Assembly: GCF_000007345.1 (NCBI RefSeq)
Contig: NC_003552.1
Coordinates: forward strand, 62,001-126,000
Direction of reading: 5' to 3'
DNA: 64,000 bases
Origin: Methanosarcina acetivorans C2A
GTDB taxonomy: Archaea > Halobacteriota > Methanosarcinia > Methanosarcinales > Methanosarcinaceae
In this document: positions 5,383 through 9,347 of the stretch, one piece after another
Layout of the letters: every line of letters begins with the position of its first letter
How positions within the stretch are numbered: position 1 is the first letter of the stretch
Notes under the pieces: model-generated
What the model was told of the DNA's origin: nothing
What the model saw: only the letters and a program-made list of their open reading frames with translations
Databases searched by the model: none
Position numbers and translations under genes: made by a program

Positions 5383-5778
5383 CAGGGTTGCACTCCAATG
5401 TTTTTCTTTTTTGATTTCGAATTTTGTCTTTTCTGATTGATAACTTCTTCCTTCAACTCATATTTCTCTCTTCCAGATCCGATGGATTCTTTTGGTTCCA
5501 GAAAGGACTATTCAAGTTACATTGATCGTTATCTGCAAATCATCTAAGGTGGAATTAAATCGGATGGAGGGATACCTGAATCTTTTTAGGTGAGGTTAGA
5601 GAATCGGATAAGGGAAAGTATCAGATAAGCGGAAACATTGGATCAGGACTTGAAAATGGTTTTCGAAAATGAATTATGGAATAGTTCTCGAAAAAGGTTT
5701 TTGAAAAGGATTTTGGAAATGATTTATACTAAAAAAATATGTAAAAGAGATAGCTGTAAAAGAGATTAATGAGATCAG
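5383..5778. other. Intergenic region, nothing recognised
   Basis: About 400 bp between the RHH gene and tRNA-Lys. It contains repeated GAAAATG/GAAAAGG motifs around 5650-5720. No gene, RNA or clear promoter was identified. Confidence 0.4.
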
Positions 5779-5852
5779 CGGGCCCGAAGGGATTTGAACC
5801 CCCGGCCTATGGATTAAGAGTCCATCGCTCTGCCTGACTAAGCTACGGGCCC
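5779..5852 (-). tRNA. tRNA-Lys (anticodon CTT)
   Basis: On the minus strand a 74-nt cloverleaf folds with acceptor GGGCCCG pairing to CGGGCCC. The D arm contains TAGCTTAGTCAGGCAGAGC. The anticodon stem is ATGGA/TCCAT around loop CTCTTAA, giving anticodon CTT (lysine). The T arm is GGGGGTTCAAATCCC, with its GTTCAAAT loop. CCA is not encoded. An AT-rich TATAAATA-like element lies about 50 bp upstream near 5903-5910. There is no intron. Confidence 0.95.
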
Positions 5853-6194
5853 ACGCATTGTTGTTCTCATTCAATGAGCGACTCTCACAATGTATTTTCA
5901 AATATTTATAGGTTGCGCCTAAGTGGGTACTCTATATAGTTTTTCAGGAAATGAACTCCGAATTTTTTCTGTGTTCTCTTTAAGATCCAGAAAAATTTTA
6001 CATTTATGTGAAACAGTTACTTTTTATGGTAAGACTAATTTTTATTCTGAATAGTTTTATTTTTTATATTAATTAATAATAACTGTCATTACTTATTGTG
6101 TTTTTGAAGCAAGAATGCTAAATTCCGGAAACCGAGTTTAAGATAATCTCCGAACTTCTTTATTTTTCTTTATGGCAGGGCATTAAAGCAAAAC

Positions 6195-6204
6195 GTTATA
6201 TACA
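6195..6204 (+). promoter_or_regulatory. TATA-box promoter of the TRAM cluster with long leader
   Basis: GTTATATACA follows the purine-rich AGCAAAAC, a plausible BRE plus TATA box. Transcription would start near 6225, leaving a leader of about 175 nt before the first TRAM gene. The only other promoter-like sequences nearby are weaker. Confidence 0.5.
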
Positions 6205-6287
6205 AGCGGATATGAGTATGACCAATTAATTGACTTATCCGAAGCTCTATTGGGGATTAGTTTACCGTAATAGATTAAGTAGAATGT

Positions 6288-6303
6288 GTACTTCCGAAAT
6301 TTG
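6288..6303 (+). repeat. Possible remnant of a fifth TRAM copy
   Basis: GTACTTCCGAAATTTG is identical over 16 nt to 6571-6586 inside the first TRAM gene (codons for VLPKF), and the same sequence recurs in the third copy. It is followed by GTTTTTCCAG instead of CATTTGCAAG. It could be a fragment left by unequal recombination or gene conversion. Confidence 0.4.
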
Positions 6304-6402
6304 GTTTTTCCAGTTTGGTTTATTAAGTACTGTTTTTACTCTTTTCTGTTCTATCGATGGAGCTTTCATAAGCTGGTTAATAAAGTCAAAGGAATGAACC
6401 TG

Positions 6403-6609
6403 ATGTTTAGAGATGAACGTACTTCTGTGCCCGTTGAAGAGGGCAAAACTTACGACGTAACTATTCAGGATATTGCTCGCCAGGGAGACGGCATTGCCCG
6501 TATCGAAGGCTTTGTGGTTTTTGTCCCGAATACAAGTGTTGGCGACGAAGTCCAGATTAAAGTCGAAAGAGTACTTCCGAAATTTGCATTTGCAAGCATT
6601 GTCGAATAA
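6403..6609 (+). CDS. TRAM-domain small RNA-binding protein, copy 1
   Basis: This 68-aa protein consists almost entirely of one TRAM domain, a beta-barrel RNA-binding fold. The core is VEEGKTYDVTIQDIARQGDGIARIEGF, then VGDEVQIKVERVLPKFAFA (motifs given in parts of the domain, residues ~13-66). I chose the second ATG because AAAGGA sits 10 nt before it; the upstream ATG at 6394 would leave almost no spacing. Small TRAM proteins of methanogens are known as cold-responsive RNA chaperones. This copy is the most diverged at the N-terminus (MFRDERTS). It heads a tandem set of four and follows a long leader. Confidence 0.85.
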   Translation: MFRDERTSVPVEEGKTYDVTIQDIARQGDGIARIEGFVVFVPNTSVGDEVQIKVERVLPKFAFASIVE

Positions 6610-6675
6610 GTGTGGGTTGAAAAATAAGTCAATTATGTTAATTTTTAACTAAAGTAAAATTAAGGAATGATTTTA

Positions 6676-6882
6676 ATGTTCAGAGAAGAAAGTCGCCCAG
6701 TCCCTGTCGAAGAAGGTGAAGTTTATGATGTCACAATTCAGGACATCGCCCGTCAGGGAGACGGCATAGCTCGTATTGAGGGTTTTGTAGTCTTTGTCCC
6801 TAACACCAGTGTTGGTGACGAAGTCCAGATTAAGGTCGAAAGAGTCCTTCCCAAGTTTGCATTTGCAAGTGTTGTCGAGTAA
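6676..6882 (+). CDS. TRAM-domain small RNA-binding protein, copy 2
   Basis: A 68-aa TRAM domain nearly identical to copy 1 from residue ~17 onward, with the same VGDEVQIKVERVLPKFAFAS ending. The start at the second in-frame ATG is supported by AAGGAATG placed about 10 nt upstream. The alternative start is 6667. The gap from copy 1 is short and AT-rich, and the same AAAATTAAGGAATG leader precedes copies 2 and 4. This shows the whole unit, including its ribosome site, was duplicated. The expected role is binding structured or misfolded RNA. Confidence 0.85.
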   Translation: MFREESRPVPVEEGEVYDVTIQDIARQGDGIARIEGFVVFVPNTSVGDEVQIKVERVLPKFAFASVVE

Positions 6883-6949
6883 GTGTGGGTAAGAGAATCA
6901 ATTTAATAGTACTAAAAATTAATTCAAGTAAATTTAAGGAATGGTTTTC

Positions 6950-7156
6950 ATGTTCAGAGAAGAAAGTCGCTCAGTCCCTGTTGAAGAGGGCGAAGTCTAC
7001 GATGTTACAATTCAGGATATTGCTCGCCAGGGAGACGGCATTGCCCGTATCGAAGGCTTTGTAATCTTTGTCCCGGGTACCAAAGTCGGCGATGAAGTCC
7101 GCATCAAGGTCGAAAGGGTACTTCCGAAATTTGCATTTGCAAGCGTTGTCGAGTAA
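6950..7156 (+). CDS. TRAM-domain small RNA-binding protein, copy 3
   Basis: A 68-aa TRAM domain. It differs from copies 1 and 2 in the central loop, where FVIFVPGTKVGDEVRIKVER replaces the NTSVGDEVQ version; copy 4 shares this variant. Its tail VLPKFAFASVVE is identical to copy 2. This mosaic pattern suggests gene conversion among the copies. A ribosome site, AAGGA, lies upstream of the chosen ATG; the alternative start is 6941. It is probably co-transcribed with its neighbours. Confidence 0.85.
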   Translation: MFREESRSVPVEEGEVYDVTIQDIARQGDGIARIEGFVIFVPGTKVGDEVRIKVERVLPKFAFASVVE

Positions 7157-7213
7157 GGTAGCCGGAAAACACTCGGTTACGCGAAATTCTACTAAATTAA
7201 AGGAATGATTTTA

Positions 7214-7420
7214 ATGTTCAGAGAAGAAAGCAGCTCTGTTCCTGTTGAAGAAGGCGAAGTCTACGATGTTACAATTCAGGACATCGCCCGTCAGGGAGAC
7301 GGCATTGCCCGCATAGAGGGCTTCGTAATCTTTGTCCCGGGCACCAAAGTCGGCGATGAGGTAAGGATCAAAATCGAAAGGGTACTTCCTAAATACGGTT
7401 TTGCCAGCCTTGTTGAATAA
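7214..7420 (+). CDS. TRAM-domain small RNA-binding protein, copy 4
   Basis: The last of the four 68-aa TRAM proteins. It carries the GTKVGDEVRIKIER variant and a distinct tail, KYGFASLVE, in place of KFAFAS. The start was chosen at the second ATG, with AAAGGA about 10 nt upstream; the alternative is 7205. An 11-bp hairpin followed by a T-run begins 26 bp after its stop, which marks the probable end of the TRAM transcript. Confidence 0.85.
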   Translation: MFREESSSVPVEEGEVYDVTIQDIARQGDGIARIEGFVIFVPGTKVGDEVRIKIERVLPKYGFASLVE

Positions 7421-7445
7421 ACAGGACAATTTATCAGAACAACAG

Positions 7446-7484
7446 GACTGAAAAATAATAAAAAATCATTTTTCAGTCTTTTTT
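7446..7484 (+). terminator. Hairpin plus T-run after the TRAM cluster
   Basis: GACTGAAAAAT at 7446-7456 pairs perfectly with ATTTTTCAGTC at 7468-7478, followed by TTTTTT. It is placed just after the last TRAM gene. Confidence 0.7.
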
Positions 7485-7653
7485 CTGTTAATTTCAGATA
7501 TTCTAACTAATTTCCGGCTTCCAGAACGTGCCGGAACCTCTTTTTCTGAAGTACGGATTTCTTTGTTTGGTTTCCTTTTTTAGTTTCCTTTTTTCTAAAC
7601 CCCCATTTGACCGATAGGCACTCACACTTGCCGTAGTTTGTTTCGCCCATCAC

Positions 7654-8394
7654 TCATTCCTCCTCATTTAAAATTCTTATGTATTCTTCTACTAGGGATT
7701 TTCCCATTCCCAGAATTTGTGCAATTTCCTCACTTTTCATCGTTTTGCTAAGCTTTTCTACCTTCTTGTATGCTTTAATGTACCTATCACACGCTTCCTG
7801 CGTGTGATTTGTCATTCTTGCAATATCCGGTGTTTGATATCCTTTTATGTACAAGTTTAGTATAATCCTCTTGTGAGTGACTGCTCTACCAATATCATGT
7901 ATGATTCCTCTTGTTGGCAATATCTCGCCTGTTCTTTGCATATACTCCTTTGCCTGTTTGCTTACCGTACCCGTGGAAACATTTAGCAGATATGCCATAT
8001 CAGAATGTGTTAGCAGTGCTTCCTGTTCATATGCCTCTTTAAATATCCTAACCACTTTTGTTTCCATTATTTCTCTATCTGAATACCCTTCCTTCTTCAT
8101 CTCCAGGTCATCTTTGGAAATCAAGGTCAAAACAATTGGTGTTAATGGTGTTTTCTTACTGTTTTTACCATAATTCGGCTTCTCTGAAGCCTTTGCTCCA
8201 TACCACAAAATCTGTCCAACTTCCAGTTTCCATGGCTCTCTATAAGATTTCCTCACCACTTCCACGAGATCATTGGCAAACATTTCCTGAATTTTGTCAC
8301 CTGCAATAAACTGGTAATCATTTTGTATCAGATCCAGAACTGAACCTTTCAGGGAGCTTGTTACCTTTGTTTCAATCATTGAAGGTACTTTCAT
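7654..8394 (-). CDS. DUF1670-type helix-turn-helix regulator, downstream member
   Basis: This protein of 246 aa has the features I associate with DUF1670. An N-terminal region of unknown fold is followed by an HTH (LLTHSDMAYLLNVSTGTVSK, residues ~135-155). A conserved ILPTRGIIHDIG segment follows, then VTHKRIILNLYIKGYQTPDI, and a C-terminal helix pair ending KSLVEEYIRILNEEE. I chose the ATG at 8394 because it overlaps the upstream gene's TGA as ATGA and has GGAG just before it. The two genes are therefore translationally coupled. It probably binds DNA; neither ligand nor target is known. Confidence 0.75.
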   Translation of the reverse strand: MKVPSMIETKVTSSLKGSVLDLIQNDYQFIAGDKIQEMFANDLVEVVRKSYREPWKLEVGQILWYGAKASEKPNYGKNSKKTPLTPIVLTLISKDDLEMKKEGYSDREIMETKVVRIFKEAYEQEALLTHSDMAYLLNVSTGTVSKQAKEYMQRTGEILPTRGIIHDIGRAVTHKRIILNLYIKGYQTPDIARMTNHTQEACDRYIKAYKKVEKLSKTMKSEEIAQILGMGKSLVEEYIRILNEEE

Positions 8395-9347
8395 CTTCTC
8401 CATCTCCCCGAACTGTTTTTTGGACCTGTTTCCGTGTTCATTCTGCTGATCTCTTTTTTTCCAAAAATGCTATGAAGCTGGTCTAAACGTTCCTGATATT
8501 CCTCGGTAGAATAAGTCTCAATCAGCTCTTTGTATTCCTGAATTGTTTTTTCAGAAAGCCCTGTTATGATCCTGAGTTCTTCATCTTCGAATCCCTCTTC
8601 AGTCAGCACCAGTATTCTTGCAAAATCCTTTACATAACGCATTATGGCTTCGCCACTATGTTGGGTCTTTCTCTCGATCTCAGTATATTCGTACCCTTTA
8701 AGATATAGCTCCAGAATCCGTTTTTTGTGGCTTACTCCGGGACCTATATCCTTCCATTTTCCTCTGGTTGGAACCAGTTCTCCATTCTCTTCCAGCGCTT
8801 CTATATGTCGTGAAATTGTCTTTGTACTCTCTCCCAGAAGAATTGCGATGTCAGCCTGGGTGAGCAAAGCGCCCTGAGTGTGTGCTTCATTACTTATGCG
8901 CATGATCCGTTTATCCAGCAGCTCTCGCTGGTTCTTAACTTTGCAGTCTTCAGGGTCGTAGATAGTGATAATGACAGAAACCAGATTCATCTCATTAACT
9001 GGTACGCCAGGAGGAACGTCTTTGGAAACTCCATGGAAGATAATCTGGCCTTCTTTGCGCTGACTGCTGAAATATAGGTCAATGTAAGACATGAAGAGCT
9101 CAGACAGAGATCTGCAAACAGCACGAGGAAAGGAATAATCCTGCATCAGTTCATTGTAAAGTTGAGTCTGTAATTGGCGATTAAAAGTTGAGAGATATTC
9201 TTTTGGGATTTTCAAGACCACTAGTGCCACCAACAATGTTTTGGTGACAAGAGTAGATAAACAATCGGTCAGAAGGGGGTATTTTAGTTTCCATGTCCAT
9301 ACGTTAAGCTTTACCAACCTTTTTTTCGGGCTTCTGATATTGAACAT
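8391..9347 (-). CDS. DUF1670-type helix-turn-helix regulator, upstream member
   Basis: Up to 318 aa. It shares with its downstream neighbour an HTH (LLTQADIAILLGESTKTISR), LVPTRGKWKDIGPGVSHK, a LYLKGYEYTEI segment and a C-terminal helical repeat. The true start is uncertain. A TATA-like TTATATAA lies at about 9356-9363 on the coding strand side, only some 10 bp before the ATG at 9347, which would put that ATG upstream of the transcript. A TTG at 9215 (274 aa, MKIPKEYL...) is an alternative that removes an atypical hydrophobic N-terminus. Two diverged paralogues in one operon suggest heterodimeric or sequential regulation. Confidence 0.72.
   Translation of the reverse strand: MFNIRSPKKRLVKLNVWTWKLKYPLLTDCLSTLVTKTLLVALVVLKIPKEYLSTFNRQLQTQLYNELMQDYSFPRAVCRSLSELFMSYIDLYFSSQRKEGQIIFHGVSKDVPPGVPVNEMNLVSVIITIYDPEDCKVKNQRELLDKRIMRISNEAHTQGALLTQADIAILLGESTKTISRHIEALEENGELVPTRGKWKDIGPGVSHKKRILELYLKGYEYTEIERKTQHSGEAIMRYVKDFARILVLTEEGFEDEELRIITGLSEKTIQEYKELIETYSTEEYQERLDQLHSIFGKKEISRMNTETGPKNSSGRWRR

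Follow-up and report, generated by a model that had tools for sequence, protein, structure and literature searches.

The TRAM array and its setting

The window analyzed here, a 64,000-nucleotide stretch of the Methanosarcina acetivorans C2A genome (G000 in our numbering of genomes), carries four short open reading frames arranged head to tail at 6403–7420. As the earlier note had proposed from the letters alone, these are tandem genes for standalone TRAM proteins: all four translations match the Pfam TRAM family (PF01938) over residues 10–67 of 68, at 66–69 bits against a cut-off of 21. The second copy aligns along its entire length of 68 residues (E 1.1e-36) with PDB 1yez, the solved structure of the M. 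mazei protein MM1357. An RNA-binding or RNA-chaperone role is known for relatives, and may by analogy be expected of these four products. The features discussed below are as follows, in positions of the window.

6196–6202, plus strand: TATA-box-like TTATATA (TATATA upstream in 33 of 33 clusters)
about 6220–6402, plus strand: conserved 5′ leader (leader model R1 matches 6220–6381)
6227–6237 with 6369–6379, plus strand: predicted long-range helix P1
6241–6250 with 6357–6366, plus strand: predicted long-range helix P2
6273–6322, plus strand: probable fossil TRAM 3′ end in the leader, aligning with gene nt 153–203 (from nt 135 in several other genomes)
6288–6330, plus strand: predicted hairpin P3, made of the fossil tail (GTACTT at 6288–6293 with AAGTAC at 6325–6330)
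6333–6345, plus strand: twin U4 tract TTTTTACTCTTTT, candidate termination signal directly 3′ of P3
6403–6609, plus strand: TRAM copy 1, 68 aa; NTSVGDEVQ loop; most conserved of the four copies
6676–6882, plus strand: TRAM copy 2, 68 aa; loop of copy-1 type; inner copy
6950–7156, plus strand: TRAM copy 3, 68 aa; GTKVGDEVR loop; nt 61–113 the same as in copy 1
7214–7420, plus strand: TRAM copy 4, 68 aa; distinctive IERVLPKYGFASLVE tail
7446–7484, plus strand (read by eye): hairpin GACTGAAAAA..TTTTTCAGTC with T run, 3′ of copy 4

From its sequence, we infer that the TTATATA at 6196–6202 serves as the promoter. The hairpin and T run at 7446–7484 likely mark the end of the operon; a pattern scan listed the stem for the minus strand alone. 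A scan for bacterial-type promoters, which is ill suited to archaea, found three candidates against 3.0 in shuffled sequences. An Rfam search of 5900–7600 gave no match to the leader up to E 1, and two sub-threshold matches downstream, at 7354–7553.

The whole genome (5,751,492 bases, a single contig) contains seven Pfam TRAM matches, three of them outside the array. Two of these three are TRAM tails, one on a 202-aa protein that presumably resembles aIF2-beta and one on a 272-aa protein that we take to be an FtsJ-like methyltransferase; the third lies within a 436-aa open frame.

Some neighboring features deserve mention in their own right. Upstream of the leader, at 5778–5852 on the minus strand, there is a tRNA-Lys (CTT) in the opposite orientation. 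The spacer between copies 3 and 4 contains, by eye, a possible hairpin at 7158–7180 (GTAGCCG with CGGTTAC), of which near relatives such as G066 share part only. Further downstream, also on the minus strand, two adjoining predicted proteins of 249 and 318 aa (7654–8403 and 8391–9347) each appear by eye to have a helix-turn-helix-like part; the pair look like diverged tandem paralogues, and thus like another tandem duplication next to that of the TRAM genes.

Copy number and distribution

The copy-number comparison suggested in the earlier note reveals a stable array. The gene occurs in all 30 genomes of the genus, and four matches at E <= 1e-28 are found in 21 of them; the nine with fewer are drafts of at least 120 contigs, and every Methanosarcina genome of one or two contigs has four copies (11 of 11). 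Near-identical middle copies may collapse in assembly, and three-copy clusters in fragmented drafts were therefore excluded as evidence of loss. The four-copy array is old in the genus. A single-contig genome of the sister genus g11 (G011) has five copies, and in other genera of the family the TRAM matches are mostly far apart, among the matches listed. Two Methanothrix (Methanosaeta) contigs carry two or three tandem TRAM matches about 280 nt apart (L129, 2712–3436; L122, 2726–3170); such arrays are therefore not confined to the Methanosarcina group.

Exchange between copies

In this genome, copies 1 and 2 share the loop VVFVPNTSVGDEVQI and copies 3 and 4 the loop VIFVPGTKVGDEVRI, while the tail VERVLPKFAFASVVE is common to copies 2 and 3; this is the mosaic that the earlier note described, with the addition that copy 1 is only one residue away from the shared tail (I for V) and that the tail of copy 4 is the odd one out among the four. 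The pairing of loops 1 and 2 is particular to certain lineages: an NTS-type loop in copy 2 occurs in this genome's clade and in G076, but most other clusters examined carry the GTK loop there. A further exchange went unmentioned in the note; copies 1 and 3 are completely identical in DNA over nt 61–113 (P=0.008, before correction for six pairs). The 22 sites that divide the copies two against two comprise 11 of pattern 12|34, 7 of 13|24, and 4 of 14|23, and are clustered by pattern along the gene (P=0.023). This runs test gives P < 0.05 in just 6 of 22 four-copy genomes, however, and is therefore weak for any single genome. Between copies 1 and 2, 34 of 42 differences fall at third positions, from which it follows that protein change is constrained.

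Stronger evidence for the mosaic comes from the conflict between segment trees, built over the eight members of this genome's clade in which copy 2 carries the NTS loop—a group that was, given this choice, defined after the sequences had been seen. For nt 1–111, the test rejects 1+2|3+4 (AU p=4.7e-5) and 1+3 (p=0.0005) but not 2+3 (p=0.32). For nt 112–204, 1+2|3+4 appears in the best tree with support 97/98.8; the alternatives 2+3 (p=0.088) and 1+3 (p=0.054) are not rejected at 0.05. The two segments of the gene thus have conflicting histories, and the alignment and recombination check proposed beforehand did not recover a simple, unmixed phylogeny of the four copies. In the tree of the first segment, copy 3 of G000 stands away from the other copies 3 and beside the copy-1 branch, a placement that fits a recent transfer from copy 1 to copy 3.

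Positional comparison of 20 four-copy clusters (G001 and G025 dropped) extends this picture across the genus. At third positions of nt 1–111, copies 2 and 3 differ from each other by 0.12 and from their own orthologues by 0.19 and 0.20; the paralogues are closer than the orthologues at silent sites too, as expected of concerted evolution. Copies 1 and 4 are not closer to paralogues than to orthologues in this segment, and lie at 0.32–0.41 from their paralogues. The loop shows some closeness between copies 3 and 4 (0.28 vs 0.32 for orthologues), and in the tail, copies 1–3 are mutually close (0.15–0.22), with copy 4 apart (0.50–0.57). No special silent-site conservation was seen in the gene tails of these clusters. 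On average, 5.5%, 59%, 54%, and 15% of same-position orthologues are farther away than the nearest paralogue for copies 1, 2, 3, and 4, respectively. These figures, with the third-position differences, indicate that exchange mainly concerns the middle copies. The repeated exchange claimed in the earlier note is thus borne out, by the conflicting trees and by the closeness of copies 2 and 3 in the 5′ half. Its suggestion of slight specialization agrees with the behavior of the outer copies, since the loop of copy 1 and the tail of copy 4 are largely kept by position across the genus. High dosage, its other suggestion, would be compatible with the constant four copies in the 11 genomes of one or two contigs, which do not by themselves prove it.

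In some genomes the spacers are involved too: spacer 1 is the same as spacer 2 in G082, and the two share 96% identity in G047, but just 53–55% in G063 and G064. This is consistent with long conversion tracts, or with unequal crossing over, in certain lineages. The mosaic is real, and is an example of an evolutionary process already known, ordinarily read as gene conversion or unequal exchange. In G075 (contig L174), the spacer before copy 4 is 190 nt long and contains an insert whose ends, GAGCCTGTCCCAAAAC and GTTTTGGGATCAGCTC, appear by eye to be inverted repeats resembling those of a small mobile element.

A conserved 5′ leader

The array is preceded by a conserved leader that the earlier note did not mention. 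Leader and upstream TATATA are recognizable in all 33 clusters with usable upstream sequence, drawn from 38 loci (the five left out of this set are G021a, G078a, G079b, G080, and G071), and leader length ranges from 165 to 256 nt. Alignment A2 contains 32 of the 33 leaders (G070 left out); alignment A3 and model R1 were built from 22 of these 32, leaving out seven leaders with an extra repeat insert, G075 and G076 (other inserts), and G035.

Over 18 genomes (G001, G025, G075, and G076 left out), leader identity is 87%, against 47–51% for the spacers, from which the stop codon and last 19 nt were excluded. Among the other regions compared, the 100 nt upstream of the TATA region reach 68%, the TATA region itself 93%, third codon positions of the genes 72–87%, and the sequence downstream of the array 64% at 1–90 nt and 37% at 91–250 nt. 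The leader is far more conserved than the spacers, and is therefore very probably under selection; we lean toward a conserved regulatory role.

The leader is also specific to genomes with the array. Searched under stricter filters, 100 genomes of the family gave a match to the leader model in 28, with one main match each: 23 of 23 in the window's genus, 2 of 2 in genus g2, 3 of 4 in g11, and 0 of 71 in the other 11 genera. The three genera with the leader are those with the array in this sample, and the g11 genome without a leader match (G042) likewise has no array match at E <= 1e-28. In the M. acetivorans genome, the leader is present once.

Smaller peculiarities of the leaders were noted by inspection. 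A mini reading frame, ATG ACC AAT TAA, lies at 6218–6229, near the expected transcript start; versions of three or four codons occur in most other leaders, and G073 has none. The G070 leader (L167, 952–1206) contains several direct repeats of about 20 nt that resemble AATAGATTAAGTATTAATCA. One extra AATAGATTAAGTATTAATCA-like unit is present in the leaders of G054, G061, G062, G063, G079a, G081, and G083; these extra units sit between the fossil VGD and VLP regions described below.

Relation of the leader to TRAM gene tails

The leader is homologous to the 3′ end of the genes that it precedes. A profile of 124 TRAM genes, read on the sense strand, matches every one of the 33 leaders with the 3′ end of the gene: 28 at E <= 0.0066, and the five most diverged at 0.065–1.2. 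In the 64-kb window, both strands included, the leader is the top non-gene match at 16.3 bits, the next reaching 8.2. Among 2000 shuffles for each of seven sequences, the real score was reached 0 times for the consensus and five leaders, and once for G001. Single profile scores of leaders are low, and an unrelated match among the loci, a Methanolobus gene with the conserved peptide DEVQIKVE, reaches 14.8 bits; such scores are therefore not decisive individually.

Searches in the reverse direction return to the same place. A covariance model of the leader, run on the 100 family genomes, gave just three extra matches at E <= 0.1, all on TRAM gene tails. The leader model run over a selection of loci (30 sources, 164 kb) gave 105 matches at E <= 10, namely 30 leaders and 75 others; 59 of the 75 reach into the final 45 nt of a TRAM copy in the same orientation (21 on the first copy from the 5′ end, 19 on the second, 19 on the third, none on later copies), with 12 antisense on the leader and 4 elsewhere. 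The alignment of leader to gene can be followed across VGD, IK, and VLP-F-F as far as the stop codon, and beyond it into the spacer. From the end of the fossil tail to copy 1 is 79 nt including the stop codon; the G000 spacers, counted alike, are 69, 70, and 60 nt. Given the reciprocal matches, the continuation into the spacer, and the similar spacing, a further copy very probably once lay upstream, and we regard descent of the leader from the 3′ end of this fifth copy as highly probable. In the leader's first third, upstream of gene nt 135, homology is not significant when taken alone (51 of 1000 shuffles).

Inspection by eye led us to reject a live fifth gene within the leader, since the fossil tail lacks a matching start and has an interrupted frame. 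Conversion still under way between leader and genes is not supported: the leader is closer to copies 1–4 of its own genome than to those of other genomes in just 11, 7, 8, and 8 of 18 genomes, although the G000 leader has GTACTTCCGAAATTTG exactly in common with copies 1 and 3.

Predicted leader structure and the twin U4 tract

RNAalifold and single-sequence folds predict a long-range double helix (P1/P2) around a hairpin (P3/P4) formed by the fossil tail. P1/P2 would end shortly before the ribosome site, which is itself predicted to lie outside both helices. Mean helix probabilities over 22 leaders, at 37 and 15 C, respectively, are 0.85 and 0.87 for P1, 0.87 and 0.89 for P2, 0.91 and 0.93 for P3, and 0.70 and 0.70 for P4. 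For the inner helix P4, the probability falls close to zero in G000, G001, G015, and G072—in this genome it is 0.05, and the helix is not favored—and P3 is near zero in G073. The structure has a z of -2.66 and was equaled in 1 of 200 shuffles; helix partners can pair in 95% of alignment cells, against 28–55% once slid. Double-sided changes occur at 4 pairs, against 1.2 in shuffles, and at up to 5 with partners slid (3 against 1.3, and up to 4, in the 22-row set). With double changes few, and slid versions matching or exceeding them, the fold is plausible as a model but not proven.

Directly 3′ of P3, every one of the 33 leaders has a twin U4 tract; such a pair occurs in just 1 of 91 spacers, and in 110 of 672 background tiles. 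The distance from the first U4 to the first ATG is 60–71 nt in 27 leaders and 76–96 nt in the other six, three of which belong to g11 and have a longer leader 3′ end. For aCPSF1 in Methanococcus maripaludis, two U4 tracts are given as the minimum for efficient binding in the part of PMC8716108 on this question. The leader sequence has the two closely spaced U4 tracts of an aCPSF1-type terminator, and transcription may terminate there.

Discussion

The interpretation that we favor, at a probability of about 0.5, is of an exchanging four-gene operon whose leader derives from a fossil copy and acts as a feedback element. The tandem array evolved by exchange of segments between copies, whether by gene conversion or unequal crossing over, with outer copies 1 and 4 retaining their own loop and tail and inner copies 2 and 3 being repeatedly homogenized. 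Formerly, the array very probably extended further upstream, and the 3′ end of a fifth copy persists as the 5′ leader of the operon, maintained by selection in three genera. Its most likely role would be in cis: the fossil-tail hairpin P3/P4 would be followed by the twin-U4 termination signal, and the long-range helix P1/P2 would enclose both, stopping shortly before the ribosome site. TRAM protein could then tune how often transcription ends early or continues through its own leader. Pairing in cells, termination at the U tract, and TRAM as the effector are inferred. TRAM-controlled attenuation of this kind is the likeliest among working models, if a tentative one that we would not call probable. 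Similarly speculative is the idea that the lost first copy became the array's regulatory RNA, which the surviving chaperones would unfold, so that protein and switch would be of one descent.

The observations might also be explained by an ordinary array in concerted evolution, kept for dosage, with a leader that derives from a lost copy and is retained as promoter-proximal DNA or a generic 5′ UTR, without any feedback. Neither the descent of the leader nor the fixed number of four copies needs regulation, covariation in the leader is weak, and the TATA region just upstream is likewise highly conserved; this account is a realistic contender, if one to which we give somewhat less than even weight. 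It sits less easily with conservation that spans about 190 nt up to the ribosome site, well above that of the spacers, with the consistently pairable helix partners, and with the maintenance of twin U4 in every leader. A leader acting as a temperature-sensing RNA, in the manner of cspA, with its likeness to the gene tail a relic without function, would suit both the nearness of the long-range helix end to the ribosome site and the cold induction of TRAM genes described for Methanolobus psychrophilus in part of PMC5572242. Yet the predicted mean helix probabilities hardly differ between 37 and 15 C, and the ribosome site lies in neither P1 nor P2. A simple thermometer is unsupported because predicted pairing is unchanged between these temperatures, and we consider this explanation improbable.

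As for the mosaic itself, the protein patterns could in principle reflect convergent substitution under selection, with no exchange at all, since the loop variants differ at few residues and protein change is constrained. But silent sites carry the signal as well, both in the tract of nt 61–113 shared by copies 1 and 3 and in the third-position closeness of copies 2 and 3 (0.12, against 0.19–0.20 for orthologues), and it extends to the noncoding spacers 1 and 2 of G082 and G047; convergence is accordingly very improbable. Exchange within the array, combined with a fossil-derived feedback leader, remains our preferred reading.

Several published systems resemble parts of this one. The M. mazei operon MM1355–MM1358, as presented in the operon section of PMC11456600, likewise encodes four small TRAM proteins, with ribosome footprints along the coding parts and with 5′ and 3′ UTRs that are seen in RNA-seq and absent from Ribo-seq; exchange between copies and a leader derived from a fifth copy are not mentioned in that section. 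TRAM0076 of M. maripaludis is, like the array products, a standalone TRAM protein, and the RNA-chaperone activity is that established for TRAM0076: in the portions of PMC6705878 that deal with its function, it unfolds 5′-UTR hairpins and promotes read-through in an antiterminator-like manner, and binds its own transcript, with autoregulation predicted; loss of a chaperone of this type alters the expression of 55% of genes in M. maripaludis. Those portions predict no temperature change for its own 5′ UTR, and do not mention a tandem array or fossil leader. Paralogues undergoing recurrent gene conversion, including four Methanosarcinales methyltransferase genes, are likewise described as more alike within a genome than orthologues are, in a study whose main text and archaeal table do not include TRAM; unlike those cases, the TRAM array has its middle copies alone homogenized.

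Autoregulatory leaders are familiar from genes of RNA-binding proteins, as in ribosomal protein operons and the cspA leader. The analogy to the present case is a structured 5′ leader before the gene of an RNA-binding protein, with feedback proposed here and no homology claimed. Unlike those leaders, the TRAM leader would descend from a copy of the very gene that it would regulate. A limited keyword search of the open literature turned up no publication about this leader, nor any about pseudogene-derived leaders; the retention of a decayed copy as the leader of its operon appears to be what is new here, beyond the known mosaic mode of evolution.

With its stable ends and homogenized middle, the array offers a clean natural case of the tension between array uniformity and specialization in archaea. 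If the proposed role of the leader is correct, a cis-regulatory RNA can originate from a duplicate of the gene that it controls, and a type of chaperone with broad effects on gene expression would have a specific leader open to testing.
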